Positions 3,370 through 33,353 of a stretch of 40,915 bases of DNA are shown piece after piece. The notes under the pieces were generated by a model, which did not search any database, was not told the DNA's origin, and was given only the letters and a program-made list of their open reading frames with translations. This DNA is from Verrucomicrobiota bacterium JB024. GTDB lineage: Bacteria; Verrucomicrobiota; Verrucomicrobiia; Opitutales; Cerasicoccaceae. Location of the stretch: positions 1 to 40,915 of the forward strand of contig JAUTCS010000097.1 in assembly GCA_030673825.1 (NCBI GenBank), given 5' to 3'. Both the position numbers and the translations under genes were made by a program. Position 1 is the first letter of the stretch. Every line of letters starts with the position of its first letter.

Positions 3370-6300
3370 TTACGCCCCATGCGCAATCGCACCGGCGTAG
3401 GTGTAGCCGCCGCCGAAGGCGACGAGCCCGTACTTGGCGCCGGGGCTGATGCGGTGCATGTTCTCTTCCAGGCACAGCGGGATGGAGCTGGAGGAGGTGT
3501 TGCCGGTCAGCTTGACGTTGCGCCAGACGCGCTCGGGGTCGATGTGGAGCTGGCGCGCCACCGCGTCGAGGATGCGGTCGTTGGCCTGGTGGGGGATGAT
3601 ACCCTCCAGGTCGGTCGGCGGCGTGTCACACTGTTCGCAGACGGTTTCGAGCATCTGGCGCATCTTGCGCACGGCTTTCTGGAAGACCCGCCCGCCGCTC
3701 ATGGAGATCTTGTGGGTGGGATCGGGCAGGGGTACGGAAAGGAACTCGCCGGTCTCGCCCTCGGCAGCCAGGGCCGGGCGGTGCAGCCAGAACTTGGGCT
3801 TGTCGGCCACGGCGGGGCCCTCCAGGAGGGTGGCGGTGGCGGCGTCGCCGAAGAGGATGGCCGTGTCGTAGTCGTCCATGTTCAGCAGCGGGCTCATCAC
3901 CTCGGAGGTGACCATGAGCACGCGCGCGTCCGGACGGCTGCGCAGGAAGTCGTGGGCCAGCGAAAGCCCGTAAATGTAGCCCGAGCAGGCGGCGCTGATA
4001 TCAAAGGCCGGGCACTCGTAGTCCCCGCCGATGGCGTGCAGCAGGCGGCAGGCGAGCGAGGGTGTGGCGATGTCCGGGGTGGTGGTCGAGCAGATGATGA
4101 GGTTGATCTGATCGACGGACATGTCGTGGTTACTCAGCAGGCGGGTGGCCGCGTCCCCCGCGAGGGTGGGGACGTTTTCGCCCGTGTTGTTCCAGGGGCG
4201 GGGGTGGATACCGCACTGGCGGATAAGCTTTTCCTCGCTGCTCTCTGGGAAAAGCTTGAGGATCTCGGCGTTGGATATCTGGCGGGAGCCGCGCGAGGAG
4301 GCGATGCCGCTGATACCCACGTAGTGTGCCTGCGGCGTGACAATGGCGGGCGCGGCGGTGACGGCGGCTTCGACCTCGGCCGGTTTTTCCGGTGCGGAAA
4401 TCAGGTACGGGGACTCCTTCACACGGCGGGCGGAGTCGGCGGCGGCGGCGATCTCGTTGGCCACGCGCAGGCGCAGGATCGGCGTGCCGATCTGGACGGT
4501 GCCCCCGGCGGGTACGAGGATTTCCTCGACCGTGCCGCTTTGCGGGGAGAGCAGGTCGGCGGCGGCCTTGTCGGACTCGAAGACGCCGAGCACGTCGTCC
4601 ACCTTGACCTCCTTGCCCGGCTCGGTCAGCCACTCGGCGATGGTCACGGAGTCGTCCGAGGCGGAGACCCCGATGGCCTCGATGGTGAAAAGCTCGTCGT
4701 TTTCATCGGCCTCGCGCTTCCAGCCGATCTCCAGCTTGAGCAGGTCGGCGGCGGCGGTGACGATGCTGCGCACGGACGGCAGCGTCTCCAGGTGGCTGGG
4801 GAAGTGGAAGGGCACGTAGGTGTCGTTGCGGGCCACACGGCGCACGGCCACGGGGCGTGCGGCGGCCTCGACCACGGCAGCGCAGACTTCCGCGCCCGGC
4901 CCGTACGAAAGCGAGTCCTCATGGACGACGACGAGCCGCCCGGTCTTTTCGGCCCAGCTCGTGACCAGCGGCTTGTCCCAGGGGCTGAGGCTGCGCAGGT
5001 CGATCACGGCGGCGGAGACCCCGAGCGTGTCGAGGGCTCCGGCGGCCTCTTCGCACAGCGGGAGGGTGTTACCCCAGCCGACCAGCGTCAGGTCCGTACC
5101 TTCGCGGGTCAGGCGGGCGCGCCCGGCGGGCACCCAGTGCCGGTCGATGTCGGCGGAGGTGCACAGGCCGCGGTTGTTGAGGAGGTTTTTCGGGTAAAAG
5201 AAGACCGTGGGCCGCCGCGAGGCGAAAGCCGCGCGGAGCATCCCGGCGGCGTCCCCGGCGTTCGAGGGCATGAACACGTCCACGCCGGGGCTGTGGGCGG
5301 CGATGGCCTCCATCGTCTGGGTGTGGGTCGGGCCGGTGCCGGGGCGGTAGCCGCCGCAGGAAACCATGAGGATGACGGGCGCGTCCCACTCGCCGGCGCT
5401 ACGCCAGTAGGTGATGGCCAGCTCGCTGTGGAACTGGTTGTACACCATGGGGAAAAAGTCCGCGAACTGCACGAAGGCCACGGGCTGGCCCCCGGCCATG
5501 GCGCGGCCAATGGCGGTGCCGATGATGGTGGACTCGGCCAGTGGCGAGTTGCGCACGCGGTCCGGGAAAGCGGTGGAGAGGCCCTTGGTCACGCCGAAGG
5601 CGTCGCCCTTGGGGTCCTCGATGTCTTCGCCGTAGAGGGAGACAGCAGGGTTCGTGTCGAGCTGCTCCTTGAGCACTTCGACGATGGCCTCGCGCATGGA
5701 CAGGTCGGCGGCGCCGGGCTTACCGGTGTATTCCTTGTTGGAAAGGTAGTGCGAGGAGAGCGGGCGCTTGACCTCGGGGGCGAGGGCGGGTGCGGGTACC
5801 TTGCGGGCGTCGTCGGCGGCGGCTTCGGCATCCTTACGGCAGGCGTCGTCGATCTGCTTGACTTCGTCCTCGGACAGGCCCAGCTCGACCAGCTTCTTGG
5901 CCAACAGGGCGACCGGGTCGGCCTCGGCGGCGATCTGCTCGATCTGCTCGGGCGTGCGGTAAAGGCTCTGGTCGTCGGCGTTGGAGTGGCTGCCGAGGCG
6001 TTCGACCTCCAGCAGCACGAGAGCCGGGCCGCGGTCCTCGCGCATCTTCGCGCAGATGGTCTCGAACCCGGCGCGGGTGGCGAGCGCGTCGCGGCCATTG
6101 AGGCGCGTCAGCGGCAGGCCGAAAAGCTCGTCGTGCTTCTTCCCACCGGGGAGGGAGAAGAAGGTCTTGCCCTCGGTCAGGGTGGAGAGGGCGAAATGGT
6201 TGTCCTGAATGACAAAGAGGACCGGGAGGTGGTCGCGGACGGCCTCGGCCACGGCCTCGTAAAAGTCGCCCTGCTGGGTGCCGCCTTCGCCCACGGAGAC

Positions 6301-6759
6301 GTACACGATGGGCTTTTCGGGCTGGTCCTTGACCTGAGCGGCCACGCCGACGGAGGGCAGCATGTTGTTGCCGACGGAGGTGGGCATGGTCATCACATGC
6401 AGCTCGCGGTCGGAGTGCATGGTATTGAGCTGGCGGCCCTTGGAGCTGGAGCGGGCGTTGCCGAAGAGCGCGTCGAAGATCGTCTCGGGCTTGATGCCGC
6501 GGGCGAGCTGGAGGGCGCGGTCGCGATAGTGGCAGTGAAGCCAGTCCTGGGGCCCGAGGTACTCCGCGAGGGCGGCCATGGCTTCGTGCCCGGCGCACTC
6601 GACGTGGAAGAACGCTTCTCCGCGCTTGATCAGGCGGGCTTCGAGTTTTTCAACCTCGCGCGAAAGGCGCATCCACCGGTACAGGGCGCGGGCGGCGTCA
6701 ACGCTGGGGGCGGCGGAAGCGTTGGCGGGTTGGGAAGAGGTGTGCAGTGGTTGCTTCAA
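3370..6759 (-). CDS. Fused 2-oxoacid dehydrogenase E1-alpha / E1-beta / lipoyl domain / beta-ketoacyl-ACP synthase III
   Basis: This 1129-residue protein joins four parts in frame. Residues about 20-330 are E1-alpha: YRDRALQLARG (79-89), the thiamine-diphosphate motif from VGEGGTQQGD (156-165) to QDNHFA (185-190), and GSHSNADDQSLYR (256-268), close to the HSxxDD(x)nYR loop of branched-chain 2-oxoacid dehydrogenases. Residues about 350-680 are E1-beta: LYGEDIEDPKGDAFGVTKGL, SPLAESTIIGTAIGRAMAG and QFADFFPMVYNQ. Residues about 692-768 are a lipoyl domain with ESDKA, lysine 731 being the lipoylation site. Residues about 812-1129 are a FabH-like KAS III with an intact triad: Cys925 in DISAACSGY, His1057 in IIPHQANDR and Asn1087 in GNTSSSS. 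No E2 acyltransferase or E3 domain is present. The start is TTG at 6759, with AGGAAA about 6 bases upstream on the minus strand and no closer ATG. Likely role (inferred): decarboxylate a branched 2-oxoacid and prime fatty-acid or polyketide synthesis. Confidence 0.95.
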   Translation of the reverse strand: MKQPLHTSSQPANASAAPSVDAARALYRWMRLSREVEKLEARLIKRGEAFFHVECAGHEAMAALAEYLGPQDWLHCHYRDRALQLARGIKPETIFDALFGNARSSSKGRQLNTMHSDRELHVMTMPTSVGNNMLPSVGVAAQVKDQPEKPIVYVSVGEGGTQQGDFYEAVAEAVRDHLPVLFVIQDNHFALSTLTEGKTFFSLPGGKKHDELFGLPLTRLNGRDALATRAGFETICAKMREDRGPALVLLEVERLGSHSNADDQSLYRTPEQIEQIAAEADPVALLAKKLVELGLSEDEVKQIDDACRKDAEAAADDARKVPAPALAPEVKRPLSSHYLSNKEYTGKPGAADLSMREAIVEVLKEQLDTNPAVSLYGEDIEDPKGDAFGVTKGLSTAFPDRVRNSPLAESTIIGTAIGRAMAGGQPVAFVQFADFFPMVYNQFHSELAITYWRSAGEWDAPVILMVSCGGYRPGTGPTHTQTMEAIAAHSPGVDVFMPSNAGDAAGMLRAAFASRRPTVFFYPKNLLNNRGLCTSADIDRHWVPAGRARLTREGTDLTLVGWGNTLPLCEEAAGALDTLGVSAAVIDLRSLSPWDKPLVTSWAEKTGRLVVVHEDSLSYGPGAEVCAAVVEAAARPVAVRRVARNDTYVPFHFPSHLETLPSVRSIVTAAADLLKLEIGWKREADENDELFTIEAIGVSASDDSVTIAEWLTEPGKEVKVDDVLGVFESDKAAADLLSPQSGTVEEILVPAGGTVQIGTPILRLRVANEIAAAADSARRVKESPYLISAPEKPAEVEAAVTAAPAIVTPQAHYVGISGIASSRGSRQISNAEILKLFPESSEEKLIRQCGIHPRPWNNTGENVPTLAGDAATRLLSNHDMSVDQINLIICSTTTPDIATPSLACRLLHAIGGDYECPAFDISAACSGYIYGLSLAHDFLRSRPDARVLMVTSEVMSPLLNMDDYDTAILFGDAATATLLEGPAVADKPKFWLHRPALAAEGETGEFLSVPLPDPTHKISMSGGRVFQKAVRKMRQMLETVCEQCDTPPTDLEGIIPHQANDRILDAVARQLHIDPERVWRNVKLTGNTSSSSIPLCLEENMHRISPGAKYGLVAFGGGYTYAGAIAHGA

Positions 6760-7077
6760 GCAAATTTCCTAGGTTAGACGTTTGCTGCCGTCAGGTGGGG
6801 GCCGGTCCCGGGCGGGATGGCCGTGCCGCTGGTCTGGTCTGATTTATGTGTGTAAATCGGTGATTGGCAAATGTTCGGTTCACTTCAGCTCCAGCCATTT
6901 TTGACAGCTGGGTGCCGAATGGTTCCCTCCGACGATGAGACCGGAAAGAACCAAAGGTGTATTGATAGAGCTTTTGAGACTGGGAAACCAGTCTTTTCTA
7001 GGGGTGTTCTCAATAAGGCTGGTTTATGCCCGGACCCCGGTAAATCAGCGAGGGATGTCATGGGGGACGGGACGCGT
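6760..7077. other. 318-base spacer upstream of the fusion gene
   Basis: No coding region is convincing here. The spacer holds two hairpins: GATTTA/TAAATC around TGTGTG at 6841-6858, and the perfect AGACTGG-GAAA-CCAGTCT at 6977-6994. It should contain the promoter and leader of the fusion gene, which starts at 6759, and the end of the upstream ABC ATPase transcript. No riboswitch class was recognised. Confidence 0.6.
6977..6997 (+). terminator. Hairpin with GAAA tetraloop and short T tail on the plus strand
   Basis: A perfect 7-bp stem AGACTGG/CCAGTCT closes a GAAA loop and is followed by TTT on the plus strand. Both neighbouring genes are on the minus strand, where no T tract follows the stem. 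If it acts as a terminator, it ends an unannotated plus-strand transcript or stops antisense reading. It may instead be only a leader structure of the fusion gene. Confidence 0.35.
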
Positions 7078-8851: not shown

Positions 8852-9882
8852 GGGACTTTCAGGGCGCTTTTGAAGACCGCGTTCAGCTCCGGACGGAGCT
8901 TTTCGAGGTCGTTGCCGCGCAGGAAGTCCCAGCCCACCCAGCTCAGCTTGCCCGGCAAGGGCTGCTGCCCGGGGTAGCTGTAAACGGCGGGAAAGCCCAC
9001 GCTGTCCAGGTACCGGCCCCACTCGGGGCTCATCAGAAAATCAATAGCCAGCTGGCTGACGGGGCGGCGGCCCCGCTTGCCCAGCACCATCAGCGGCTGG
9101 AAGAGCGCCCCCTCCTCGGGCCAGACGAGCTTGACCTTGTCCTGGCGGCGGCGGCCCAGCGCGAAGAACAGGTTCAGCGTGTAAATGGCGGTGCCGTCGG
9201 CGTGGCCGGCCCCGGCGGCCTTGACCATCTGCGCGGGCGACCAGAACTGCTTCACATTGGCGGCTATGGCCTTGAGCCCCTCCTCGCCGTGGTGCTTCCA
9301 GGTGTTGAACAAAAGGTTGTCGGAGAGCTCGCCGTCGCCGTGTCCGGCCAGGGTCACGTCCCCGGCGTAAATCGGGTCCACCAGGGCGCTCCAGCCGGTG
9401 GGCAGGGGGCGGTCGCCGAGTTTGTCTGTGTCCACCAGCATGACGGTAGGGAAGGCCGCGTACAGGTGCATGGCCCCGAGCGGGTCGATGATCCCCGCCT
9501 CCGCGAACTCCGCTCGCATGGGCCGGTCGGGCTTGTCCACGGGGCCGTAAACGCCGGTGGCGATCCACTTGTCGTGGCCCTCCTTTTTCAGGAAGTCACT
9601 GCTGCCGCCGTCGGAGATGACGCCCGGCATGTCGCCTTCGTGGCCGTCCTGCCAAATGGTGTCGTAGGGGTCGTTACCCCCGCCGCCGTGGAAGCATCCG
9701 GCGGGCGAAAACCAGTCCATCGGCCCGAATTCCGGCTCGTGCGCGCGGAAATAGGCGTGCATCCGGCGCTGCATCTCGGCGCGGATCGGGCATGGCGCGT
9801 AGCCCAGGTAGTCGAGCTTGCGCGCGGGCAGGCCCTCGTTTTCCGGGAAACTCGGATCTTCGTCGATGATGTCAGGTCTCAT
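8842..9882 (-). CDS. Substrate-binding-protein-like protein without signal peptide
   Basis: 346 residues starting MRPDIIDEDPSFPENEG, with no signal sequence or lipobox, so it is predicted to be cytosolic. The body resembles type-2 periplasmic binding proteins of the iron(III)/thiamine class: YAAFPTVMLVDTDKLGDRPLPTGWSALVDP, GEEGLKAIAANVKQFWSPAQMV and PVSQLAIDFLMSPEWGRYLDSVGFPAV are typical of that fold. Near the N-terminus are conserved-looking YLGYAPCPIR and SPAGCFHGGGGNDPYD, where Cys and His could bind a metal or cofactor. It is the first gene of the trio; its stop codon overlaps the GTPase start. A lost signal peptide is possible, but no hydrophobic N-terminus can be restored from an upstream start. 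I do not recognise a characterised member. Confidence 0.82.
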   Translation of the reverse strand: MRPDIIDEDPSFPENEGLPARKLDYLGYAPCPIRAEMQRRMHAYFRAHEPEFGPMDWFSPAGCFHGGGGNDPYDTIWQDGHEGDMPGVISDGGSSDFLKKEGHDKWIATGVYGPVDKPDRPMRAEFAEAGIIDPLGAMHLYAAFPTVMLVDTDKLGDRPLPTGWSALVDPIYAGDVTLAGHGDGELSDNLLFNTWKHHGEEGLKAIAANVKQFWSPAQMVKAAGAGHADGTAIYTLNLFFALGRRRQDKVKLVWPEEGALFQPLMVLGKRGRRPVSQLAIDFLMSPEWGRYLDSVGFPAVYSYPGQQPLPGKLSWVGWDFLRGNDLEKLRPELNAVFKSALKVPCS

Positions 9883-10005
9883 AGCGGCTTGCGTACTGAG
9901 ACAGCAGATTCCCTGCCGGTTCCCGTCAAAGGACCGCCGCCAACGTGTATCGGAGCGAGGTGCAAGTCGTGCTAATGGTGGGCATTACCACTCGGTCGCA
10001 AGGAA

Positions 10006-10090
10006 ACGTCACTACGCGACGTCATTTTCTCTTTCACCCGGACCGTGGGTTGAAACCCACGGTTAATGATCAGGCAGTCGCTACGCGACT
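10006..10090. repeat. Three-palindrome REPIN-like unit
   Basis: Palindromes at 10006-10022 (ACGTCACTACGCGACGT, one mismatch), 10043-10062 (CCGTGGGTTGAAACCCACGG) and 10076-10090 (AGTCGCTACGCGACT). The spacer text GTCATTTT...CTTT after the first palindrome, and TAATGATCA after the second, match the copy at 25658-25742. It lies between two minus-strand genes. Confidence 0.88.
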
Positions 10091-10170
10091 ATACGTTGCT
10101 GCGTTACCTTTTCGAAGCGAGTGCGTAGTCATAACGATTCCATGACCCAAAGCCAGAATCTCCCTGTGTA

Positions 10171-10192
10171 CTCTGTGCCCTCTGTGGTTTTA
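10171..10192. repeat. Dispersed CTCTGTG-type motif, copy 2
   Basis: CTCTGTGCCCTCTGTGGTTT followed by TA, preceded by a further CCCTGTGTA. It sits 80 bases from the three-palindrome repeat, as does the copy at 25802-25822. Confidence 0.6.
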
Positions 10193-10221
10193 CCCCATAA
10201 AACGCGGATTCGTGCGTCTGG

Positions 10222-11199
10222 CTACGCCCCGCTGAGTCCGCGCCAGTCAAAGAGGGCGGCCGGGGTGGCCAGGGTCTGCTCCAGCAGCCCCATGTAGACC
10301 TGCTGGCAGTCTTCGGGAGAGTAGAGGGTGGCCAAAGGAGAGACCTCGATGGCACCGCTGGCCAGCCAATCCAGTGCTGCGGCGTAGTTGGAACCGATGC
10401 AGTGGTGGCCAAATTTCTCCTCCTCAACCGGCACCTGCCACTCCCAGCCGCTGCGCAGCACCACGTAGCGGTGGAAGACTGCGTCCAGCAGCTCGAAGGC
10501 GTACCGCTCGGTCTTGCGCGCCCAGGGCACGCCGATAAGGACAACCTCGCCGAGCTTGCGCACGAGTTTGCACCCGTCGAGGGCGGCCTGTTCGTGGCCG
10601 CTGCATTCGGCGTGCAGGCCGATTTTGTCCTGCAGATCCTCTCCCGCGCTGGCCTGGACATCCTTGAGTCCGCAGGCGGTGGCGGTTTCGCGCCGGGCCG
10701 GGGAGGGGTCCACCGCGGTGACCTTGTAGCCACAGCGGGCGAACAACTGCGCGGCTAGATTCCCGACCGGGCCCAGCCCCGTCACCAGCACGTGGGCCGG
10801 CGCAGTGACGGACGTGGTATTCAGCGTGCTCATGCTCACGCCCATCAGCCGGGCGAACACGGCCTTTTCCGGGGCCAGGGCGGCAGGAACGGGTTGCGCC
10901 TTGGCGGCGGGCATTTCCTGCCTGCTCCGGTGGCCGCCCATCCCCATCACCCGGTCTCCGGGCTTGAGGTGGGTGACCTGCCCGCCGACCTCTTCGATCT
11001 CGAAGACGCAGGCGTAGCCGGGGTGCAGGGGGAAACGGTCCTTGCTCAAGAAGGCGTAGTTCAGCTCCGTGCCGGGGCTGGTCAGGCTGACCAGTGTGCG
11101 GCCCCGGATGTGGTCCGGGGCGAGCGGCTTGCCCGGGGTGTCGAGGTCGATCAGCTCCACCTGCTTATGGGCGGTGACGGCGATGGATTTGATGGGCAT
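10222..11199 (-). CDS. Zinc-independent MDR-family dehydrogenase
   Basis: 325 residues of the medium-chain dehydrogenase/reductase fold: an N-terminal GroES-like part and a Rossmann part with VLVTGLGPVGNLAAQLF then VTAVDPS (about 138-163). The catalytic zinc ligands of alcohol dehydrogenases are absent. Where CGxCGxD is expected it has TSPGTEL, and where GHE is expected it has HPGYACVFE. This SxGTE/PGY type also occurs in BchC-like dehydrogenases. The C-terminus YSPEDCQQVYMGLL...FDWRG resembles that of the MDR gene at 14085-15116, so the two are paralogues. It follows the TIM-barrel gene by two bases and is therefore co-transcribed with it. A sugar or polyol oxidoreductase role is inferred from context. 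Confidence 0.88.
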   Translation of the reverse strand: MPIKSIAVTAHKQVELIDLDTPGKPLAPDHIRGRTLVSLTSPGTELNYAFLSKDRFPLHPGYACVFEIEEVGGQVTHLKPGDRVMGMGGHRSRQEMPAAKAQPVPAALAPEKAVFARLMGVSMSTLNTTSVTAPAHVLVTGLGPVGNLAAQLFARCGYKVTAVDPSPARRETATACGLKDVQASAGEDLQDKIGLHAECSGHEQAALDGCKLVRKLGEVVLIGVPWARKTERYAFELLDAVFHRYVVLRSGWEWQVPVEEEKFGHHCIGSNYAAALDWLASGAIEVSPLATLYSPEDCQQVYMGLLEQTLATPAALFDWRGLSGA

Positions 11200-11201
11200 G
11201 G

Positions 11202-12053
11202 CTAGAGTTGGATAAAGTTCAGGTTGTGGGCTTGGGCGACCTCCAGAATGTGGGCGACGCCGAGGGGGTACTCCTCCTTCGGCAGGTGCTCAAGGAGCAG
11301 CGGAGTGTCCGGGTGCAGACGGGAGAGCTCCTGCAGGTAGATGCCGTAGTCGAGCGTCCCGGTGCCGGGGCGGCACTCGTCGAGGTGGAGTGTCAGGTTC
11401 TCCTGAAGCTTGATGTCCTTGGCGTGGCAGCTTTTGATGTGGGCGCCGAGTTGGCGGAAGCACTCGCGGAGAAACTCGCCGTTGCGGTAGGCCCGCTCAG
11501 GGCAGTTGATCATGTTGACCGGGTCCAGGTGGACGGCGAAGCCGGGCCGGTCGATCGCCTTGAACAGGGTCAGGTATTCCTCCGGGCTGGAGGGGAAAAT
11601 CCACGGCATCGTTTCCAGGCAGTAGAACGTGCGCTTGGGGTTCACCGCGTCGATGATTTTACGCACGATCTCGACGATCATGTCGAAAACTTCCGGGTCG
11701 AAGTTGGTGGGGTGGGGGCCGGCCCATTTGTCGGGGTTGCGCGAACCGGAGACGTTCACGCAGCACTTGGCCCCGACCTCGTCGGCCAGCGCGAGGCTTT
11801 CCTGACAGTGGCGGATGGCCTGCTCGGCTTTCGCGGTGTCGGGATCAATCGGGTTGGACCACGCGCCGACTTCGGCGATGACCAGGTTGGCCTTTGCGGC
11901 AGCCTCTACATAGGCTTTCTGGCGGGCGGCCTCGTCCGGAGTTGTCGCCGGGGGGAAGGGCCACTTGGTGGCCGCGTACTTTTTGTTTCTGGCATCGGCG
12001 ATCCACTCTGCGGGGGACTCGCCGGGGGTGATGTCGGGACCTGCTAGACGCAT
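11202..12053 (-). CDS. Sugar phosphate isomerase/epimerase-like TIM barrel
   Basis: 283 residues from the ATG at 12053 (MRLAGPDITPGESPAEW). The fold is AP-endonuclease-2/xylose-isomerase type. Expected metal ligands appear in order along the barrel: Glu in FYCLETMPW, Asp in AVHLDPVNM, His in IKSCHAKDIK and Glu in PLLLEHLPKEEY. Members isomerise or epimerise keto-sugars, inositols or their dehydro derivatives; the exact reaction cannot be told. It is the first gene of a two-gene operon with the MDR dehydrogenase (2-base gap). A GTG six bases upstream is an alternative start. The divergent AraC regulator at 12109 starts 55 bases away and probably controls this operon. Confidence 0.9.
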   Translation of the reverse strand: MRLAGPDITPGESPAEWIADARNKKYAATKWPFPPATTPDEAARQKAYVEAAAKANLVIAEVGAWSNPIDPDTAKAEQAIRHCQESLALADEVGAKCCVNVSGSRNPDKWAGPHPTNFDPEVFDMIVEIVRKIIDAVNPKRTFYCLETMPWIFPSSPEEYLTLFKAIDRPGFAVHLDPVNMINCPERAYRNGEFLRECFRQLGAHIKSCHAKDIKLQENLTLHLDECRPGTGTLDYGIYLQELSRLHPDTPLLLEHLPKEEYPLGVAHILEVAQAHNLNFIQL

Positions 12054-12108
12054 ACCCACAGTCTTGCATAAAAGCGCTTAAATGGCTATGACTGCCGCTA
12101 TCTAAAAC

Positions 12109-12954
12109 ATGTCTGATTCTCCTGAGCTTCCCGATCTCGCCAGTACCCTCCAGCTGGATTATTTTCAGGCGGGGATCATGGACCGCGCCTGTGAGGGCAT
12201 GCGCCACCGCAAGAGCCCGCCCTTCGCCATCCTGCTGCAGGCGCTGGAGGGGCACTACGAGATCCAGTGCGCGGGCCGTGCTTTCAAGCTCTACCCCGGA
12301 CAGACGGCGTTCATCCCCGCGAACACGCCGGTCGAGTTCGTGCACCGGGCGGGGCCGTCAGGGTATTTGCGGGCGCAGTGGCTGCATTTTTACTACAGTT
12401 GCCTGGGGGTGATCGATTTTTTGTCGCTACTGAAACTGCCCCTCTTGCTGCCGGAATCCCTCTCCGAAAATCTCGGCCCCCTCCTGACCGCCGCGAGGGA
12501 CACGGACGAAGCCGGGCCGGGCAACCTCGCACCGGACATCAGGCGTTACCAGGTCGCAGCGAGCGTGCTGGACGCGCTGGTGGCGGTCAGTGAGGTCCGC
12601 AAGGACAGCCTGTTCTCCACCCGGCTCCAGCGCGTGTTACCGGCCCTGCTCCATATCGACAAGAACCTAGCCGCTCCCTTCGGAGTCAAGCACTTGGCCC
12701 GGCTCTGCGGCCTCTCCGAATCTCGCTTCCACGCGGTCTTCAGCGAGGAGTTCGCGTGCAGCCCGATGCACTATGTGCGGCGTAAACGCCTGGAGCGAGC
12801 CGCCCGCCTGCTGGTCAGCGGTAACGAGAAGCTCGCCGCCGTGGCCGAGGACACCGGCTTCGCCGATGCCTTTCACCTCAGTCACGCCTTCAAGCGCCAC
12901 TACGGACTGTCCCCGCTGCTTTACCGTCGGCAGGCGCGGGCCTTGTGGGAATAG
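12109..12954 (+). CDS. AraC-family transcriptional regulator
   Basis: 281 residues. The N-terminal cupin domain (about 20-110) shows ALEGHYEIQCAGRAFKLYPGQTAFIPANTPVEFVH, the classic AraC effector-pocket strand pattern. The C-terminal double HTH (about 180-275) contains FGVKHLARLCGLSESRFHAVF and KLAAVAEDTGFADAFHLSHAFKRHYGLSPLLYR. The ATG at 12109 is the first in frame. It is divergent from the isomerase/dehydrogenase operon, the usual arrangement for a local carbohydrate regulator. The effector is unknown. Confidence 0.93.
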   Translation: MSDSPELPDLASTLQLDYFQAGIMDRACEGMRHRKSPPFAILLQALEGHYEIQCAGRAFKLYPGQTAFIPANTPVEFVHRAGPSGYLRAQWLHFYYSCLGVIDFLSLLKLPLLLPESLSENLGPLLTAARDTDEAGPGNLAPDIRRYQVAASVLDALVAVSEVRKDSLFSTRLQRVLPALLHIDKNLAAPFGVKHLARLCGLSESRFHAVFSEEFACSPMHYVRRKRLERAARLLVSGNEKLAAVAEDTGFADAFHLSHAFKRHYGLSPLLYRRQARALWE

Positions 12955-12973
12955 CGCTTCCGAGAAAAACAAA

Positions 12974-13004
12974 GCGGGGAACCCGTTTTTGGTGAGTTCC
13001 CCGC
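12974..13004 (-). terminator. Rho-independent terminator between convergent genes
   Basis: A 9-bp stem GCGGGGAAC/GTTCCCCGC with a 13-base loop. On the minus strand it is followed by TTTGTTTTTC, so it best serves the MDR gene ending at 13060. It lies 20 bases after the AraC stop and may act in both directions, though the plus strand has only a later T5 run (13017-13021). Confidence 0.75.
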
Positions 13005-13059
13005 CCTGACAGGATGTTTTTGCCGGCCCCGTGCAGCAGCGGTGGCTGGCTCAAGTGGT

Positions 13060-14085
13060 TCAGCTGATACGGACCATGCCTTTGAGGACCTCGCCGGCGG
13101 CTTGTTCCTTGAGGGCTTGGTTGAGCGATTCCAGTCCGTCCCAGATGTGGGTGCGCACGGCGGCGGCGTCGAGGCGACCGTCAAGGATGCGCTGGCAGGC
13201 CTCCAGCATGAAGCTGTCGTCGGTCGGCGAGAGGTATTTTACACAGAAGTCTCCGCCCACCGCGCCCAGCGGCAGGGTGTAGGCAAAGCCGTCGGGTGCG
13301 CCGTAGATCGCGGCGGAACCGCCCGGACGCAGGCACTTGAGCCCGGCCTCGAACACCTGCTGGTGCCCGGCGGCGTCGAGGAACCAGTCCGCACCCAGCC
13401 CGCCGTTGATCTCGCGCACGGCGGCGGAAAGCTCGGCGTCAAAGGTCAGGGTGTGGGTGGCGCCATTGCGCCGGACCCAGTCGAATTTCTTTGGGCTGCG
13501 GCCAAAGGCGATGATCTTCGCCGCCCCCTGGGTGCGGGCGCACTGGGCCATGACGCATGCGGCGAAGCCGGTCCCGCCGATGACCACGGTCTGCCCGTCG
13601 AGCTTACCGAGCTTTTCGCTCCAGCTGGCCACCTCGGCCAGACTGATGGCGGCCACGGCGTCCTCGACTGAGAGAGCGGACGGCAGGACCTGCTGGCGGG
13701 CCGAGGTGTAGTCCTCCTCGGGGCCGCCGGGTACGCTGTCGTCGCGCACGATACCATACTCGGCGAAGCCGCCCCAGGCGCTGAACAGGCCTTCGCGCTG
13801 GGTGCCGGGCCAGATGGCGACGGGCCGGGTGACCCGGTCGCCGGGGGCGAACTTGCGAACCTTGTCCCCGACCTCGATCACGGTGCCGACAGCCTCGTGC
13901 CCGAGGACGGCGGGGTACCAGTCGGCGGGGTGGTGGGCCTGGTGCCCGTCCACGATGTGGCGGTCAGTCGTGCCGCACAGCCCGCAGGCTTCTATCTTGA
14001 CGAGGGCCTCGTAGGGGCCGGGCTTGGGCGGGGCGATATCCTGGATTTCCACCTGCCCGTGGGAAACGATGACGGCGGCTTTCAT
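13060..14085 (-). CDS. Zinc-dependent alcohol/polyol dehydrogenase (MDR)
   Basis: 341 residues from the ATG at 14085, which overlaps the upstream stop codon by one base (TGATG). Unlike its neighbours it has the catalytic zinc site: Cys in ACGLCGTTDRH (near 36-43) and His-Glu in LGHEAVG (near 65-71). The structural-zinc four-cysteine lobe is missing; GDRVTRPVAIWPGT replaces it. The NAD-binding motif is VVIGGTGFAACV followed by IIAFGRS. Likely oxidises a sugar alcohol or sugar; the substrate is not predictable. It is the second gene of an operon with the zinc-less MDR. Confidence 0.92.
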   Translation of the reverse strand: MKAAVIVSHGQVEIQDIAPPKPGPYEALVKIEACGLCGTTDRHIVDGHQAHHPADWYPAVLGHEAVGTVIEVGDKVRKFAPGDRVTRPVAIWPGTQREGLFSAWGGFAEYGIVRDDSVPGGPEEDYTSARQQVLPSALSVEDAVAAISLAEVASWSEKLGKLDGQTVVIGGTGFAACVMAQCARTQGAAKIIAFGRSPKKFDWVRRNGATHTLTFDAELSAAVREINGGLGADWFLDAAGHQQVFEAGLKCLRPGGSAAIYGAPDGFAYTLPLGAVGGDFCVKYLSPTDDSFMLEACQRILDGRLDAAAVRTHIWDGLESLNQALKEQAAGEVLKGMVRIS

Positions 14086-15116
14086 CAGGCCTTCCTCCAG
14101 TCGATGAGGATTCCGAGGAATTTGTCCGAACCGGCGGCCACCATGTCGTAAAGCTCCTGGCAATCCTTGGGCGCGTAGGTGTGGCTGACCAGCGGGGCGC
14201 TGCGCAGCCAGCCGCGGGCGGCCCAGCGCATGGCGGTGGCGACGGCCTCGGCGCTGTGGGCGCACGGGAAGTAGCAGGTGGGCAGACGCTGGTGCATGGC
14301 GTTCAGGTCGAGCCCGGAGGGCGGCGGATACCAGCCCTGGAAGATGAACTTGCCGAAGAGCTTGAGCAGGGGGAAGAGGCTGTTGACCACCGGAATCACG
14401 CTGGAGGTGTCGATGATGATGTCGTAGCCCTCGGGGGCGATCTGCGCCGAGCGCTCGGCGAGGTTTCCCTTTTTGCCGTGGACAAGATGCTCGGCGCCAA
14501 GCTCGCCCGCGGTTTTCAGACGGGCGTCCACGATGTCCGTGGCGGTGACGTGCGCGCCCTTGAGGTTGCATACCTGCACGGCGAACTGGCCAATCACGCC
14601 CAGCCCGCAGACGAGCACCTGCGCCCCGGCGGAGATCGTCGCCATTTCTATGCCGCGCATGGCCACGGCGCAAAGGCCGGTCAGGGCGGCTTCTTCCGGG
14701 GCGAGCCCGGCGGGCAGCTTTTCGCAGTGGTGGATGCCCAGCGGGCCGTTCGCGCGCGGGCCGCACACGTCGATGACAGCGTCGGCGACGTGGCTGCTCA
14801 TCCAGCTCTTGCCCTCGAACTCACCGGCCAGGCGCGAGGCGAAGTAAAAGACCCGCTCGCCTTCCTGCCAACCGGCGGCCTTGGCCTCGGCCCCGGTGGA
14901 GACGATGGTACCGACGCTCTGGTAGCCCGGCACGTTCGGGAAGGAGATTTCGTCGCGCTTGCCGATGTAGGCCCAGCGCTCCGTGCCCACAGAGACACCG
15001 CTGACCTCGGTCTTCACAACGATATCCCGCGGGGTCGGCTCGGGGAGGGGAACCGTCCCCACTTCGGCGTGGTTGGGTTGGGGAAAAATAATGCCTTGGG
15101 TTTTCATGGTGTCCAT
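14085..15116 (-). CDS. Zinc-independent MDR-family dehydrogenase
   Basis: About 343 residues starting MDTMKTQGIIF at 15116 (a second ATG at 15107 is equally possible). Long open frames further upstream lie inside the divergent AraC gene and are rejected. The GroES-like domain has SGVSVGTERW and PNVPGYQSVG where zinc enzymes have CGxCGxD and GHE, so no catalytic zinc is expected. The Rossmann motif is VLVCGLGVIGQFAVQV followed by VTATDIVDAR. The end, YAPKDCQELYDMV...LIDWRKA, matches the paralogue at 10222-11199. First gene of a two-gene operon divergent from the AraC regulator at 15213. Confidence 0.9.
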   Translation of the reverse strand: MDTMKTQGIIFPQPNHAEVGTVPLPEPTPRDIVVKTEVSGVSVGTERWAYIGKRDEISFPNVPGYQSVGTIVSTGAEAKAAGWQEGERVFYFASRLAGEFEGKSWMSSHVADAVIDVCGPRANGPLGIHHCEKLPAGLAPEEAALTGLCAVAMRGIEMATISAGAQVLVCGLGVIGQFAVQVCNLKGAHVTATDIVDARLKTAGELGAEHLVHGKKGNLAERSAQIAPEGYDIIIDTSSVIPVVNSLFPLLKLFGKFIFQGWYPPPSGLDLNAMHQRLPTCYFPCAHSAEAVATAMRWAARGWLRSAPLVSHTYAPKDCQELYDMVAAGSDKFLGILIDWRKA

Positions 15117-15212
15117 TTTGATCCAGTATTTAAACACCTCAATATGACAAAAATAATATCTATGGGCGAAAAATGACTGGCCTCGACGGACGGAATCCCC
15201 ACCCTGAAAACC

Positions 15213-16076
15213 ATGTGGCTCGAACAGATATCTCCCCGCCTGAACACCCTGTGGCGGGGCCCCTGGCCAATGGGCTACGTCGAGCCCGCCCGCTATCTGT
15301 ACGACCACGAGCTGATCTGCTTTATGCAGGGGCGGGTGCAGATGCGCATCGGGCGGCGGGAGCATGTGTTCGAGGCGGGAGACTTCGTCATCATCGCGCC
15401 CGACACCTACCACGTCAGCGTGGGGGAGAGCCGCCTCGTCCAGCGGGCCTGTGTGCACTTTGACTGGACCTGCCCAGTCGCAGTTCGCCCCGCCGCGATC
15501 TGCGCCTACCATCCGCAGCGCCCGGGGCGGGACGAGTTCACTCCGGCGCCCGCCTTTGTGCCGCGCGGGTTGATGAGCGGTCGATTTGACCTGAAAGGCG
15601 AGGTGCCGGGTCTGCTCTCCACACTCTTTCACCGCTGGCAGTCCGGCGACGCCCACGAGCGCGCCCTGGGCCGGGGCGTCTTTCTGGAAATTCTCGTCCG
15701 CCTGCTGTGGCCGCGCTCCGGACCTGCCAAACCGGCCCCGGACGGGCGACGGCTCCAGCTTGCCTACGCGGTCAAGGACCTGCTAGACCGCCGGGAAGAG
15801 GAGCCCGGCTCCGACGAGAGCGTCCAGCACCTGCTGGCTTCGTTGGGGTTTAGCTACCCGCACCTGTGCCGCCTGTTCCGGCAGACCTTTGGCGTGACCC
15901 CGGTCGGCTACCTCAACGCCCGCAAGCTGGAACGGGCCAAGACCCTCCTGCGCGATCCCGCCCACACGGTTTCCGAGGTCGCCTACGCGTCCGGCTTTCA
16001 GGACGTCGGCTACTTCGTCCGCAAGTTTAAGGAGCAAAACGGCGTCAGCCCCGGCAAGTTCCGAGAGGGGCTGTGA
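15213..16076 (+). CDS. AraC-family transcriptional regulator
   Basis: 287 residues. An N-terminal cupin (about 25-90) shows HELICFMQGRVQMRIGRREHVFEAGDFVIIAPDTYH. The C-terminal double HTH (about 190-287) contains VQHLLASLGFSYPHLCRLFRQTFGVTPVGYL and TVSEVAYASGFQDVGYFVRKFKEQNGVSPGKFRE. It is divergent from the MDR pair, with 96 bases between the starts, and very likely regulates them. The intergenic DNA at 15117-15180 is AT-rich, as expected for promoters. Confidence 0.93.
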   Translation: MWLEQISPRLNTLWRGPWPMGYVEPARYLYDHELICFMQGRVQMRIGRREHVFEAGDFVIIAPDTYHVSVGESRLVQRACVHFDWTCPVAVRPAAICAYHPQRPGRDEFTPAPAFVPRGLMSGRFDLKGEVPGLLSTLFHRWQSGDAHERALGRGVFLEILVRLLWPRSGPAKPAPDGRRLQLAYAVKDLLDRREEEPGSDESVQHLLASLGFSYPHLCRLFRQTFGVTPVGYLNARKLERAKTLLRDPAHTVSEVAYASGFQDVGYFVRKFKEQNGVSPGKFREGL

Positions 16077-16117
16077 GCCTGGCGTCCGCCCGCCCCTTGC
16101 GTCTCCTGTCTTCCCCC

Positions 16118-16138
16118 GCGGCGCCCCTCACACGCCGC
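16118..16138 (+). terminator. Possible weak terminator after AraC gene
   Basis: GCGGCG and CGCCGC form a 6-bp stem around a 9-base loop, followed by TGTCCGTTTGTT. The T tract is broken, so termination is only possible. It lies 41 bases after the AraC stop and 95 bases before the glycosidase start. Confidence 0.3.
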
Positions 16139-16233
16139 TGTCCGTTTGTTCAACGATATGAACACCGCGCGGATTGAGTCGCACCGGTGGGCGGGGGTAG
16201 GGGTTGATCCATAACCACAACCCCCTCGACCTT

Positions 16234-17937
16234 ATGACAACTCAGGATAAGATTTCCGCCTTGATGGCCAAGATGTCCGTGCAGGACAAAGTCGGCCAGT
16301 GCTTCGTGATCGGTTTTACCGGCAGCGTCATGACCCCCGCGATTCTGGAGCGCATCGCGAACATCCGCCCCGCCGGTGTGCGCATGGGCATGAACTTCCG
16401 CATCAAGTCGGCCTACTACGACCCCTACGCGGTCGGGGAAAAGTTCGCGCACCGGGCGCTGCGCTCGCCCACCGGCACGGTGAAGGACTTCCTGCCCGGC
16501 CTGCCGCCGCCCTACCTGACCTGCGCCGAGTACGCCGACTTCCTCAATCGCCTCAAGCGGGCCGCCCTGGCCAACCCGGCGGGCATCCCCCTGCACATCA
16601 CCTACGACATGGAGGGCGACATCAGCGCCGACTTCCCGCGCAGCCCGATGCGCTTTTTCCCCAGCAGCAAGGGCCTGGCCCAGACCGGCGACCCGCAACT
16701 GGCCGACGACGTGGCCTGGGCGGTCGGCTCCCAGATGGGCGCCCTCGGGTGCAGCTGGATTCACTGGCCGGTGCTCGACGTCAACACCGACCCCCTCAAC
16801 CCCGAGATCGGCATGCGCAGCTTCGGCGACAACGCCGACACCGTGATCGAGTACGGGATGAAGGTCTTTGAAGGGCTCAAGCGAGCGGGGACCATCGCCA
16901 CGGCCAAGCACTTCCCCGGGCGCGGCCACTCCATCGGTGACGCCCACCACGGCCTGCCGACGGTCGAGCTCGACCGCGAAGGCCTGGAGGAACACATCCG
17001 CCCCTTCCGCGCCCTGATCGACGCGGGCGTGCCCTCGATCATGACGGCGCACACGACCTACCCGGCCCTCGACCCCTCGGGCGACCCGGCTTCGCTCTCC
17101 AAACGCATCATCACGGACTTCCTCAAGGGTGAGCTGGGCTTCGCCGGAGCCGTCACCTCGGACGACATCACCATGGGCGCGATCCTCGAAGACTACGAGG
17201 TGCACGAAGCCGTCATCAAGGCCATCAACGCCGGGACCGACCTCATCCTCCTGCGTGATGAGAGCACGCTGGTGGACGAAGTTTACGCCAAGGTCATTGA
17301 GGCCGTCGAGTCGGGCGAGATCACCGAGGAGCGCCTCAACGACGCCACCGCCCGCGTGCTCAAGGTTAAGCTGGAGTACGGGCTCTTTGAGACCGGCGCA
17401 CTGGTCGAGACGGATCTTGCCGACAAGCCCGCCCGTTCGCGGGAGGTCGTCACCATCGCCGCGGATGCCGCGAAGCGTACGACCCGTGTCCTGCGCGACG
17501 AGCAGAGCCTCCTGCCGCTCAAGCCCGGTACCCGCGTGCTCCTGGTCGAGCAGGCGAACCCGCTGCACATCAACGTCAACAGCCAGGAGTGCCACCCGGG
17601 GATTCTCTGGGAGGCCATGCTCGAGCACAGCCCGCAGGTGGCCATGGTCGAGGTCAAGATGAGCTACGAGGACCGCGACCACGCGCGCATCGCCAATCGC
17701 ATGGACGAGGCCGATGTGATCGTCATGACGAACACCTACTACCGCCGCGGGGCCAGCGGTCACGAGTTTGTCCGCGACTTCTGCCGCGACTGCGAGAAGC
17801 CGGTCGTCGTTATCACCAACACTGATCTGCCACTTTCGCTCGACGACAGCTATAAAACGGTCGTGCTCAGCTACGGCTCTTCGCCGGAATCCGTGCGCGA
17901 GGTCGCCCGCCATCTTTACGGCAAGGCGGGCGATTAA
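16234..17937 (+). CDS. Glycoside hydrolase family 3, NagZ-like
   Basis: 567 residues from the ATG at 16234; a TTG at 16204 would add ten residues. The GH3 barrel occupies about residues 10-370. It carries KHFPGRGHS then the Asp-x-His dyad in GDAHHGLP (Asp236/His238), the hallmark that separates NagZ-type beta-N-acetylhexosaminidases from ordinary GH3 glucosidases, and the nucleophile in VTSDDITMGA (first Asp, about residue 310). A C-terminal domain of about 170 residues (VLRDEQSLLPLKPGTRVLLVEQ...) follows, as in two-domain members. No signal peptide is present, so it should act in the cytosol on imported amino-sugar or other glycosides. It is followed by a LacI regulator and a HAD phosphatase in the same direction. 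Peptidoglycan recycling is an alternative role. Confidence 0.92.
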   Translation: MTTQDKISALMAKMSVQDKVGQCFVIGFTGSVMTPAILERIANIRPAGVRMGMNFRIKSAYYDPYAVGEKFAHRALRSPTGTVKDFLPGLPPPYLTCAEYADFLNRLKRAALANPAGIPLHITYDMEGDISADFPRSPMRFFPSSKGLAQTGDPQLADDVAWAVGSQMGALGCSWIHWPVLDVNTDPLNPEIGMRSFGDNADTVIEYGMKVFEGLKRAGTIATAKHFPGRGHSIGDAHHGLPTVELDREGLEEHIRPFRALIDAGVPSIMTAHTTYPALDPSGDPASLSKRIITDFLKGELGFAGAVTSDDITMGAILEDYEVHEAVIKAINAGTDLILLRDESTLVDEVYAKVIEAVESGEITEERLNDATARVLKVKLEYGLFETGALVETDLADKPARSREVVTIAADAAKRTTRVLRDEQSLLPLKPGTRVLLVEQANPLHINVNSQECHPGILWEAMLEHSPQVAMVEVKMSYEDRDHARIANRMDEADVIVMTNTYYRRGASGHEFVRDFCRDCEKPVVVITNTDLPLSLDDSYKTVVLSYGSSPESVREVARHLYGKAGD

Positions 17938-26510: not shown

Positions 26511-27668
26511 TTACCCGGCGGTCTTGTTGGCGGCGCCGAGGGCGTTGTTGAGGGCGCGGGCAAGGCTCTCGATGAGGAAGGGCTTCTGGACGATTTCGGT
26601 CACGCCGAACTCTTTCAACTTGGCCTCCGTGCCCGCGTCGTTAAAGGCGGTGACGAGGATAAAGGGCAGGGTGGGCCGGATGGCGTAAAGCTGCTCGGCC
26701 AGCTCGGGGCCGGACATCTCGGGCATCTTTGAGTCCGAGAGCACGAGGTCGAAGTAGTCCGGGTGCCGCTTGACCATTTCCAGAGCCTCGGAGCCGTTTT
26801 CGGCTACGCTGACGCGGTAGCCGAGCGAGTGGAGGATGTCCATGCCCAACCCGCGCATGATCGGCTCGTCGTCCACGAGCAGGATGGCTTTTTTGTCCTG
26901 CGGGTAGTCCTCGGGAGTGGGCATGGGGGCCTCCGGGACGGGCGTCTCGTGGGAGCGTGGCAGCTCAATGGCAAAGGTGGTTTTGCGACCGGGGGTGCTG
27001 GTGGCCTCGATGGTGCCGCCGCAGTCCTGGACGATCTTATGCACGACGGCGAGGCCGAGCCCGGTTCCCAGGCCCAGCTCCTTGGTGGTGAAATACGGGT
27101 CGAAAATGCGCGGCAGGATGTTCGCGGCAATGCCGGGGCCGGTGTCGCTGACCTCAAGGCAGGCGCGCTCGCCGGAGGCGTCGGTGCCGAGGCGGACGGA
27201 GAGGGAGCCGCCCTTGTCCCCGAGGGCCTGGAGGCCGTTCTGGCACAGGTTCATGACGAGCTGCTGCATTTGGCTGGCGTTGGCCAGGACGCAGACGGGT
27301 TCGTCGGGCACGTGGACCTTCAGGGTGACGGCGGGGCTGACGAAGCCCTCCAGCAGCCGCTCGGTAAAGGCGAGGATCTCGCGCAGGTCGAGGACCTTGT
27401 GCGGGATGTTGTCGTGGCGGCTGTAGGCGGAAATCTGCTCGATCAGCTCGTGGGCGCTGCGGGCGGCCAGCATGACGTTGGCCATGGCTTTGCGGGCGAG
27501 CCGCTCGTTCTTGTACTCGCGCAGGGCCAACTCGGTATTGCCCTGGACGCCCGCCAGGAGGTTTTTCAAGTCATGGGCAATGCCGCGAGCGAGCTTGCCG
27601 AGGATGAGCAGCTTTTCGTCGGTCATGCTCTCCGTCTCGTCGGGGCTCTGGCTGGCGTGCGTGCTCAT
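26511..27668 (-). CDS. Hybrid histidine kinase (kinase then receiver)
   Basis: 385 residues, soluble, with no membrane segment or PAS domain. The dimerisation helix has the H-box GKLARGIAHDLKNLLAG (His32). The ATPase has the N-box QMQQLVMNLCQNGLQAL, G1 DTGPGIA, F-box FDPYFTTK and G2 GLGTGLGLAVV (about 133-206). A receiver follows at about 260-380: ILLVDDEP, phospho-acceptor Asp312 in LSDSKMPEMSG, Thr340 and Lys362 in VQKPF. No output domain is present, so it signals by phosphotransfer or protein contact. It is the fourth gene of a tight minus-strand operon with proC and hldD, whose first gene is another kinase-receiver with reversed order. Confidence 0.93.
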   Translation of the reverse strand: MSTHASQSPDETESMTDEKLLILGKLARGIAHDLKNLLAGVQGNTELALREYKNERLARKAMANVMLAARSAHELIEQISAYSRHDNIPHKVLDLREILAFTERLLEGFVSPAVTLKVHVPDEPVCVLANASQMQQLVMNLCQNGLQALGDKGGSLSVRLGTDASGERACLEVSDTGPGIAANILPRIFDPYFTTKELGLGTGLGLAVVHKIVQDCGGTIEATSTPGRKTTFAIELPRSHETPVPEAPMPTPEDYPQDKKAILLVDDEPIMRGLGMDILHSLGYRVSVAENGSEALEMVKRHPDYFDLVLSDSKMPEMSGPELAEQLYAIRPTLPFILVTAFNDAGTEAKLKEFGVTEIVQKPFLIESLARALNNALGAANKTAG

Positions 27669-27689
27669 GGTGAGGAAGGGGGAGGGCGC

Positions 27690-28685: not shown

Positions 28686-28688
28686 AAT

Positions 28689-29492
28689 CTAGAGCTGGGA
28701 GAGTTCGACCGAACGCTTTTGCGCGGCAGTCAGGGCTTCGGTCACGATCCCGCGCAGATTGTTCCCGGCGAAGGATTCGAGCGCGGCCTGAGTGGTGCCA
28801 CCGGGGGAGGTGACGTGCTTGCGGAGGGTTTCGGGGTCCTCGGGGGAGGCGTCCATGAGCAGGGCCGAGCCGAGCACGGTCTGCTTGGCCAGGACGGCGG
28901 CGGTGGCGCGGTCGAGGCCGAGGGTGACGCCCGCCTCCTCCATTGCCTTCGTAAACTCAAAAACGTAGGCCGGGCCGGAGCCACTCAGGGCGGTAACGGC
29001 GTCGAGTTGGCTCTCGGGGAGGGCCACGGTCAGTCCGAGGGCGCCGAGGATGCCCTCGACGGCCTGCCGGTCGGCGTCCGTGAGCGGAGCCTGCGAAGCG
29101 AAAGCGGTGGCCCCGGCGCCGATCTGGCCGGGGGTGTTGGGCATGGCGCGCACGAGGTTGCGGCACTGCGGGAACTTCGCCCCGAGGCGCTCCAGGGTGG
29201 TCCCGGCGAGAATGGAGAGGACGAGCTTGCCCGCCGTGAGGGCGGTCAGCTTCTCGTCCAGCGCGCTGAACTGCTGCGGCTTGCAGGCCAGGACCATGAT
29301 GTCCGCCCCGGGCAACAGCGTGGCCAGGTCGCGGGAAAAGCCGATACCGGTCTTTTTCGCCAGTTCGGGCCCGGTGTCGTCGTCGCCGCAGGTGCAGGCG
29401 AGTTCTTCGGGCTTGCACAGCCCCTTGCGGATGAGGCCGCCAATGATGGCCGAAGCCATTCGGCCGGCGCCGAGGAAAACCACTTTTGCCAT
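28689..29492 (-). CDS. proC: Pyrroline-5-carboxylate reductase
   Basis: 267 residues. The NADP-binding N-terminus is VVFLGAGRMASAIIGGLIRKG, followed by VLACKPQQF and LVRAMPNTPGQIGAGATAF. The ProC signature is ALSGSGPAYVFEFTKAMEEAG, and the C-terminal TSPGGTTQAALESF is also typical. It reduces pyrroline-5-carboxylate to L-proline in the cytosol. The gene lies 9 bases after the REC-kinase gene and 3 bases before hldD, an unusual setting for a housekeeping proline gene. Confidence 0.97.
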   Translation of the reverse strand: MAKVVFLGAGRMASAIIGGLIRKGLCKPEELACTCGDDDTGPELAKKTGIGFSRDLATLLPGADIMVLACKPQQFSALDEKLTALTAGKLVLSILAGTTLERLGAKFPQCRNLVRAMPNTPGQIGAGATAFASQAPLTDADRQAVEGILGALGLTVALPESQLDAVTALSGSGPAYVFEFTKAMEEAGVTLGLDRATAAVLAKQTVLGSALLMDASPEDPETLRKHVTSPGGTTQAALESFAGNNLRGIVTEALTAAQKRSVELSQL

Positions 29493-29501
29493 TTTCTTAA
29501 A

Positions 29502-31843: not shown

Positions 31844-31846
31844 GCC

Positions 31847-33343: not shown

Positions 33344-33353
33344 GAGCAAGCGA

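Follow-up and report, generated by a model that had tools for sequence, protein, structure and literature searches.

A one-chain 2-oxoacid dehydrogenase fused to ketoacyl synthase III: a candidate coenzyme A-free route for priming fatty acids in three bacterial phyla

In the textbook route to iso- and anteiso-fatty acids, a branched-chain 2-oxoacid dehydrogenase complex makes the acyl-coenzyme A (acyl-CoA) that FabH uses. The stretch of DNA analysed here (the window) consists of 40,915 nucleotides of Verrucomicrobiota bacterium JB024, contig JAUTCS010000097.1, and belongs to a 4.6 Mb draft genome in 163 contigs. On the minus strand, from 6759 to 3370, it encodes an uninterrupted frame of 1129 residues. 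According to the open reading frame (ORF) listing and Pfam, this frame joins the alpha and beta parts of a 2-oxoacid dehydrogenase (E1), a lipoyl domain, and a ketoacyl synthase III (KAS III) domain, in that order. This fusion is probably a 2-oxoacid dehydrogenase that passes its acyl group from the lipoyl arm directly to KAS III, likely with a branched substrate, and makes 3-oxoacyl-acyl carrier protein (3-oxoacyl-ACP) without acyl-CoA. Judged from sequence, we also lean toward regarding it as a CoA-free single-chain enzyme that converts a 2-oxoacid and malonyl-ACP to 3-oxoacyl-ACP, CO2, and reduced lipoyl, which would be an unrecognised form of fatty acid priming in at least three phyla.

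In the proposed mechanism, E1, with its alpha and beta parts on one chain, would decarboxylate the 2-oxoacid on thiamine diphosphate (ThDP) and reductively acylate the lipoyl group on Lys731. The acyl group would then travel on this arm, which is attached through a variable linker, to KAS III, where Cys925 would take it by thioester exchange. KAS III would then condense it with malonyl-ACP to give 3-oxoacyl-ACP. General fatty acid synthesis would reduce and elongate this product, and a separate cellular E3 would reoxidise the dihydrolipoyl arm. The E1 acylation and KAS condensation steps follow from established domain activities, and the exchange from lipoyl to cysteine would be the new step. 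We also infer that Lys731 is lipoylated, that the substrate is branched, and that the product is a fatty acid and not a polyketide.

The E1 part matches E1_dh, Transket_pyr, and Transketolase_C, and it has the ThDP and catalytic residues of alpha2beta2-type E1 enzymes (Table 1); the roles of Glu409, QFAD, and His479 in its beta part are presumed. The ThDP motif described in the original prediction is present, and in the window protein it reads GEG, not GDG. This is a conservative change, with GDG in 43 and GEG in 4 of 47 alignment rows. Among the matches listed (25 of 33 families), no NCBIfam E1 model reaches its cut-off. The lipoyl domain (PF00364) carries the predicted modifiable Lys731, conserved in all 47 rows, so this part of a 2-oxoacid dehydrogenase complex is present; the E2 acyltransferase domain for transfer to CoA (PF00198) has no match in the fusion protein at E 1e-3. 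Cys925, His1057, and Asn1087 are conserved in 46 of 47 rows, and the odd row (L058) ends at a contig edge before KAS III. The uninterrupted frame, these three residues, and the lipoyl lysine in ESDKA had all been given correctly beforehand, with the strand left unstated.

The KAS part is covered in Pfam by ACP_syn_III (residues 919-981) and ACP_syn_III_C (1042-1125). Its predicted fold matches Escherichia coli FabH with a TM-score of 0.91 (normalised to FabH) at 33% identity, and together with the Cys-His-Asn triad this places it in KAS III. It shares the fold, the triad, PHQAN, and Arg249 with the E. coli enzyme. Unlike that enzyme, it is joined to E1 and a lipoyl domain, and it scores below the cut-off of the curated fabH model TIGR00747 (234 vs 292 bits). 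It does exceed the cut-off of a broader model, PRK09352 (261 vs 249 bits). The AlphaFold model of the fusion (mean pLDDT 76, pTM 0.61, 15 alignment rows) is adequate for fold matching and too weak for the lipoyl-KAS contact or domain placement. The linker between the lipoyl and KAS domains has pLDDT below 50 at residues 769-779 and 789-811. It varies from 34 to 64 aa (median 39) among the 47 rows, and its length and content of Ala (14%) and Pro (10%) are as expected for a putative swinging-arm linker.

One-chain E1alpha-E1beta-lipoyl-E2 dehydrogenases appear to be common in other families of the window's order. The best matches there (L006-L018 and L021-L042) are single frames, mostly of 1000-1140 aa; they align with E1 and in many cases with the lipoyl domain as well, but not with KAS III. 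Those whose sequences were inspected end in E2-type catalytic sequence, and Pfam 2-oxoacid_dh (PF00198) was found at the C-terminus of L006 and L007, the two tested. Like the fusion, these enzymes have the order E1alpha-E1beta-lipoyl, with 32-40% identity and matches that begin at residues 3-32 and end at 619-810. Unlike the fusion, they have an E2-type C-terminus in place of KAS III, and their 18 rows in the E1 tree group as a clade of their own. Because the one-chain relatives have an E2-type C-terminus at this point, KAS III occupies the acyl-acceptor position in the fusion. The earlier claim that the E2 acyltransferase domain is absent and KAS III stands in its place was thus borne out.

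In E. coli FabH, the CoA adenine is held by Thr28 and by a sandwich of Trp32 and Arg151, and the pantetheine is held by Arg36 and two asparagines, as given in the available text of PMC4606726. The KAS domains of 46 fusions were set against 37 stand-alone FabHs, taken from 37 of the 38 fusion-bearing genomes as the top PF08545 match in each apart from the fusion. L058, which has no KAS match before its contig end, is omitted from the KAS counts, and L132, a duplicate of L060, from both the 46- and 47-row sets; L004/L005 are the same contigs as L048/L049 and were counted once. G578 (internal TGA) and the partial G471 and G418 were left out of the KAS comparison and the genome inventories. The 46 rows are not independent, as five are near-identical Cysteiniphilum-type rows. 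Thr28, Trp32, and Arg151 were each found in 0/46 fusion KAS domains vs 37/37 FabHs. The equivalents of Cys112, His244, Asn274, Asn247, and Arg249 (the last presumably an ACP docking residue) are retained in 46/46; Asn247 is a pantetheine contact. This pattern of retained and lost residues fits entry of malonyl-ACP through the pantetheine channel and a primer that would not come from CoA. Phe87 is also replaced, by Thr or Ser in 46/46, which suggests an acyl pocket roomier than that for acetyl.

Several findings weigh against the proposed CoA-free transfer and its branched primer. Among nine other KAS III-like paralogues, Trp32 is absent in eight, Arg151 in five, and all three adenine residues in four. 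Some KAS III-like enzymes that lack the clamp are thought to use acyl-CoA. For these reasons, loss of the adenine clamp is not diagnostic, and loss of Trp32 was rejected as proof of CoA independence. The FabH comparison set, taken as best PF08545 matches, was by that choice the most FabH-like. The pantetheine contact Arg36 persists in 37/46 fusions (it is Gln in the window protein), and Asn210 is retained in neither fusions nor FabHs. The Lys214 position, which we take to be an ACP-docking residue, is Lys in 16/46 fusions vs 33/37 FabHs. In 31/46 fusions, the Thr28 position is occupied by a Trp that lies one helix turn away and might still contact an adenine. All fusion genomes but one already have another KAS III. 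No neighbour gene is common to the family across 45 loci, where genes for ACP and polyketide synthase (PKS) were not sought one by one. The predominant fatty acids reported for Cerasicoccaceae in the available text of PMC10288369 are C14:0 and C18:1 omega-9c, not iso or anteiso. The case for CoA independence draws on the absence of all three adenine residues in combination with the retained triad and Asn247, and on the fusion itself.

Recurrence across genomes had been proposed as a check on the prediction, and the domain order was found again in strains and metagenome-assembled genomes of three phyla, Verrucomicrobiota, Spirochaetota, and Pseudomonadota. In the window's order, 5 of 372 genomes have the fusion, all of them in the window's family (f1), which includes Cerasicoccus arenae; G004, G005, G007, G008, and G009 are f1 genomes without it. 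Judged by PMC10288369, the window organism probably falls in the genus Ruficoccus. In a phylum sample, 35 of 387 genomes match from E1 into KAS III (5 in f1 and 30 outside the window's class). One of the 35 carries an internal TGA, and two further genomes are partial (G471 and G418). Fifteen named loci match, 14 of them into KAS III, including Cerasicoccus arenae, Cysteiniphilum, Accumulibacter, and Spirochaetales; named records outside the phylum also include ones titled Caedibacter sp. and Proteobacteria bacterium. In one spirochaete order, a threshold of 1e-150 gives matches in 35 of 46 genomes; 28 of these matches span E1alpha into KAS III, two of them with an internal TAA. In the Cysteiniphilum order, 14 of 33 genomes match and 13 have the whole span.

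Fusions form one clade in the E1-lipoyl tree (31 rows, SH-aLRT 100), apart from the one-chain E1-E2 enzymes, and one clade in the KAS tree (27 rows, SH-aLRT 99), apart from FabH. The E1 tree holds 31 fusions, 18 E1-E2 chains, and 2 Streptomyces sequences; the KAS tree holds 27 of the 46 fusion KAS domains, 19 of the 37 FabHs plus E. coli FabH, and the nine paralogues, of which two sit on very long branches. The two trees were built quickly, and SH-aLRT values are their only measure of support. A single fusion event, inherited as a unit and then spread partly between phyla, would be the simplest account, which such trees do not prove. In a search of 72,556 plasmid records with the full fusion, none of the 1082 matching records contained a stretch spanning 80% of the query. 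A search with the KAS part only matched 368 records, and the annotated ones among the best 30 of the 368 are FabH or KAS III.

Lipoyl synthase LipA is present in 38/38 fusion-bearing genomes, and E3 (TIGR01350) is above its cut-off in 36/36 entries (35 genomes, with C. arenae entered twice); therefore the lipoyl lysine of the fusion could be modified. At least one separate E2 is present in 38/38 genomes. Because a separate KAS III is found in 37/38, the fusion is an additional KAS III. The window genome and C. arenae (95% and 97% complete) have exactly two E2s each, with no third at E 1e-5. In the window genome, one E2 lies beside E1 subunits of pyruvate dehydrogenase (PDH) and is above the NCBIfam PDH cut-offs; the other lies beside the E1 of 2-oxoglutarate dehydrogenase (OGDH) and is above the OGDH cut-offs. 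C. arenae has an OGDH E1-E2 pair above cut-offs, and its other E2 is PDH-like (428 vs a cut-off of 445 bits), a likeness taken from the E2 itself. Two points favour a branched substrate: PDH-type and OGDH enzymes exist beside the fusion, and the Phe87 position is Thr or Ser throughout. The original prediction had drawn a branched-chain substrate from the GSHSNADDQSLYR loop. That loop alone is a weak argument, since the PDH of Geobacillus presumably has a similar DD loop, and the genome inventory is a better one.

The substrate could instead be pyruvate, with the same route leading through acetyl-lipoyl to acetoacetyl-ACP, which would be the usual FabH reaction carried out without CoA. We consider this unlikely. 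Among the matches listed, the best NCBIfam E1 matches bear PDH names, all far under their cut-offs, and the straight-chain acids predominant in Cerasicoccaceae (PMC10288369, available text) agree with an acetyl primer. Such an enzyme would be redundant in the window genome, which has a PDH above NCBIfam cut-offs and a separate FabH, and Thr or Ser in place of Phe87 also speaks against it. Furthermore, QFADF in E1beta resembles QFADY/QFADYF of branched-chain E1s in alignments, a likeness that we assume to bear on branched-chain identity. Published fatty acid profiles were set aside as evidence on whether the substrate is branched. The iso-C14:0 or iso-C15:0 described (PMC10288369, PMC5303756) is made by related Opitutae, not by demonstrated carriers of the fusion; the Cerasicoccaceae profile is the straight-chain one given above.

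Neighbouring genes were compared as ORFs of at least 60 aa within about 9 kb of the fusion, as contigs allow, all-against-all for the 45 loci. The widest neighbour family occurs at 11/45 loci, from families f42 and f49 outside the window's class, and a conserved operon partner was rejected on this count. Smaller families of 4-7 loci sometimes mix lineages and vary in position. By eye, some neighbours resemble housekeeping genes (RNase G, RodA, topoisomerase, and DEAD-helicase types). Because the 45 loci have no neighbour in common, the fusion seems to work with general cell machinery.

The KAS domain could also be a transacylase, or it could feed a dedicated polyketide or another carrier instead of fatty acid synthesis. 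This is quite unlikely, given the lack of a common neighbour and the intact Cys-His-Asn triad in 46/46, which argues for condensation. A precedent for it is a Streptomyces polyketide cluster that has the same parts split over genes, with its own ACP. In the polyoxypeptin cluster, orf5-orf10 form one operon with E1alpha, E1beta, an 82-aa "dihydrolipoamide succinyltransferase", ACP, and KAS III (PMC3943440). As far as the available text of that paper goes, the operon serves an isoleucine-derived C5 extender unit; its authors suggest an ACP-bound product and tie the E1/E2 genes to beta-keto reduction. An E2 catalytic domain would not fit into 82 aa, and this "E2" is probably no more than a lipoyl carrier, a function that the available text does not assign to it. 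The comparison with the one-chain fusion is by description only.

A third arrangement is found on two Streptomyces plasmids (L139 and L140). Like the fusion, they have a one-chain E1 (Pfam-tested in L139), a lipoyl domain, and a later ketosynthase. Unlike the fusion, the adjoining megasynthase has the order lipoyl-2-oxoacid_dh-ACP-ketosynthase, with E2 and ACP between, in a modular PKS/nonribosomal peptide synthetase system. These loci are apparently loading modules that move the acyl group from lipoyl to ACP through the E2 domain. L139 is surrounded by pabB, chorismate mutase, and prephenate dehydrogenase, a gene set reminiscent of a streptogramin cluster. Branched-chain 2-oxoacid dehydrogenase complexes have E1 and lipoyl parts and the same overall logic as the fusion, but they are made of separate proteins with an E2 and a free acyl-CoA intermediate. 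The use of 2-oxoacid dehydrogenases as a source of acyl groups bound to carriers thus probably arose more than once. What sets the fusion family apart is the complete lack of an E2 and a KAS III that belongs to the E1-lipoyl polypeptide. The open-access literature searched, which did not cover subscription papers, yielded no description of this one-chain E1-lipoyl-KAS III architecture. The earlier suggestion that this would be a new way to prime chains must be qualified, since the split set of parts in Streptomyces had already been published (PMC3943440, available text).

Alternatively, the acyl group may still pass through CoA. In that case KAS III or another E2 would transfer it from the lipoyl arm to CoA, with the fusion serving only to channel acyl-CoA to the adjacent condensing site. 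KAS III normally takes acyl-CoA, and the frequent retention of Arg36 is in keeping with this. We regard such a route as very improbable for a chain without an E2 catalytic domain whose adenine-holding residues are absent in all 46 fusions. Direct transfer from lipoyl to the KAS III cysteine, as first proposed, gains partial support from the recurrence in three phyla, the position of KAS III, these absent residues, and the lack of a third E2 in two genomes; loss of the clamp, seen also in four of the nine paralogues, is not diagnostic.

Although the window comes from a draft genome, merging of separate genes by assembly or a missed frameshift, an artefact that the prediction had named as a possible refutation, is virtually impossible, as full-length uninterrupted homologues with 42-90% identity occur in independent genomes, including Cerasicoccus arenae KCTC 12870 and Cysteiniphilum litorale DSM 101832.

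If direct transfer is correct, a dehydrogenase and the first step of fatty acid synthesis would be one enzyme, and the acyl-CoA intermediate of iso/anteiso priming would be bypassed. This would explain how amino acid carbon reaches lipids in organisms without a separate branched-chain dehydrogenase complex, and it would keep the primer apart from the CoA pool. The protein would also supply a module, already fused, for starting branched fatty acids or polyketides. Cultured carriers (Cerasicoccus arenae and Cysteiniphilum) make the proposal directly testable.

Table 1. Features of the fusion gene in the window, with residue numbers of the encoded protein, and the two Streptomyces loci used for comparison.
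Feature	Coordinates	Strand	Basis
Whole ORF, 1129-aa fusion; TTG start 6759-6757, stop 3372-3370	3370..6759	-	ORF listing, Pfam, homologues
AGGA, likely ribosome-binding site, 7 bases upstream of TTG start	6767..6770	-	Sequence reading
E1alpha, E1_dh, residues 28-324 (1.5e-44)	5788..6678	-	Pfam
E1alpha ThDP motif, GEG 157-159 ... N187; loop GSHSNADDQSLYR, residues 256-268		-	Pfam, 47-row alignment
E1beta pyrimidine-binding domain, Transket_pyr, residues 353-528	5176..5703	-	Pfam
E1beta Glu409, QFAD 431-434, His479	within 5176..5703	-	Alignment
E1beta Transketolase_C, residues 546-656	4792..5124	-	Pfam
Lipoyl domain, Biotin_lipoyl (PF00364), residues 704-764 (1.1e-13)	4468..4650	-	Pfam
Lys731, predicted lipoylation site in ESDKA	4567..4569	-	47-row alignment
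Variable linker, residues 767-812	4324..4461	-	Alignment, predicted structure
KAS III (FabH-type) domain, residues 812-1125	3385..4326	-	Pfam, FabH alignment, fold match
Ser840, at Thr28 position (H-bond to CoA adenine in FabH)	4240..4242	-	FabH alignment
Lys844, at Trp32 position (stacks on CoA adenine in FabH)	4228..4230	-	FabH alignment
Cys925 (AACSG), catalytic, = E. coli FabH Cys112	3985..3987	-	FabH alignment
Tyr964, at Arg151 position (other face of CoA adenine in FabH)	3868..3870	-	FabH alignment
His1057 (PHQAN), catalytic, = FabH His244	3589..3591	-	FabH alignment
Asn1087 (GNTS), catalytic, = FabH Asn274	3499..3501	-	FabH alignment
L139, apparent loading-module locus (NZ_CP061282.1, Streptomyces xanthii plasmid)	11929-17262		Pfam
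L140, apparent loading-module locus (NZ_CP108424.1)	9878-15207		Pfam

The TTG start of the fusion gene, with AGGA seven bases upstream, is plausible. On the plus strand, an ATG-started open frame of 1132 aa (3379-6777) lies antisense to the whole gene and is taken as a GC-rich, non-coding antisense shadow. In one genome (L149, G776:C24:22000-31000), a full fusion lies beside a second copy, a 798-aa frame at 27560-29803 that matches E1-lipoyl only (25-769). In a spirochaete (L055), a 292-aa frame that by eye resembles short-chain dehydrogenases is found directly downstream of the fusion stop and is possibly a ketoreductase partner in that lineage. In Cerasicoccus arenae (L049, NZ_BMXG01000007.1), the fusion is followed by a 311-aa frame resembling squalene/phytoene synthases by eye. 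Elsewhere in the window, plus-strand open frames of 1305, 923, and 380 aa (26763-30680, 30677-33448, and 35342-36484) have no Pfam match at 1e-3, and they may be shadow frames, given the rows of shorter minus-strand frames opposite.

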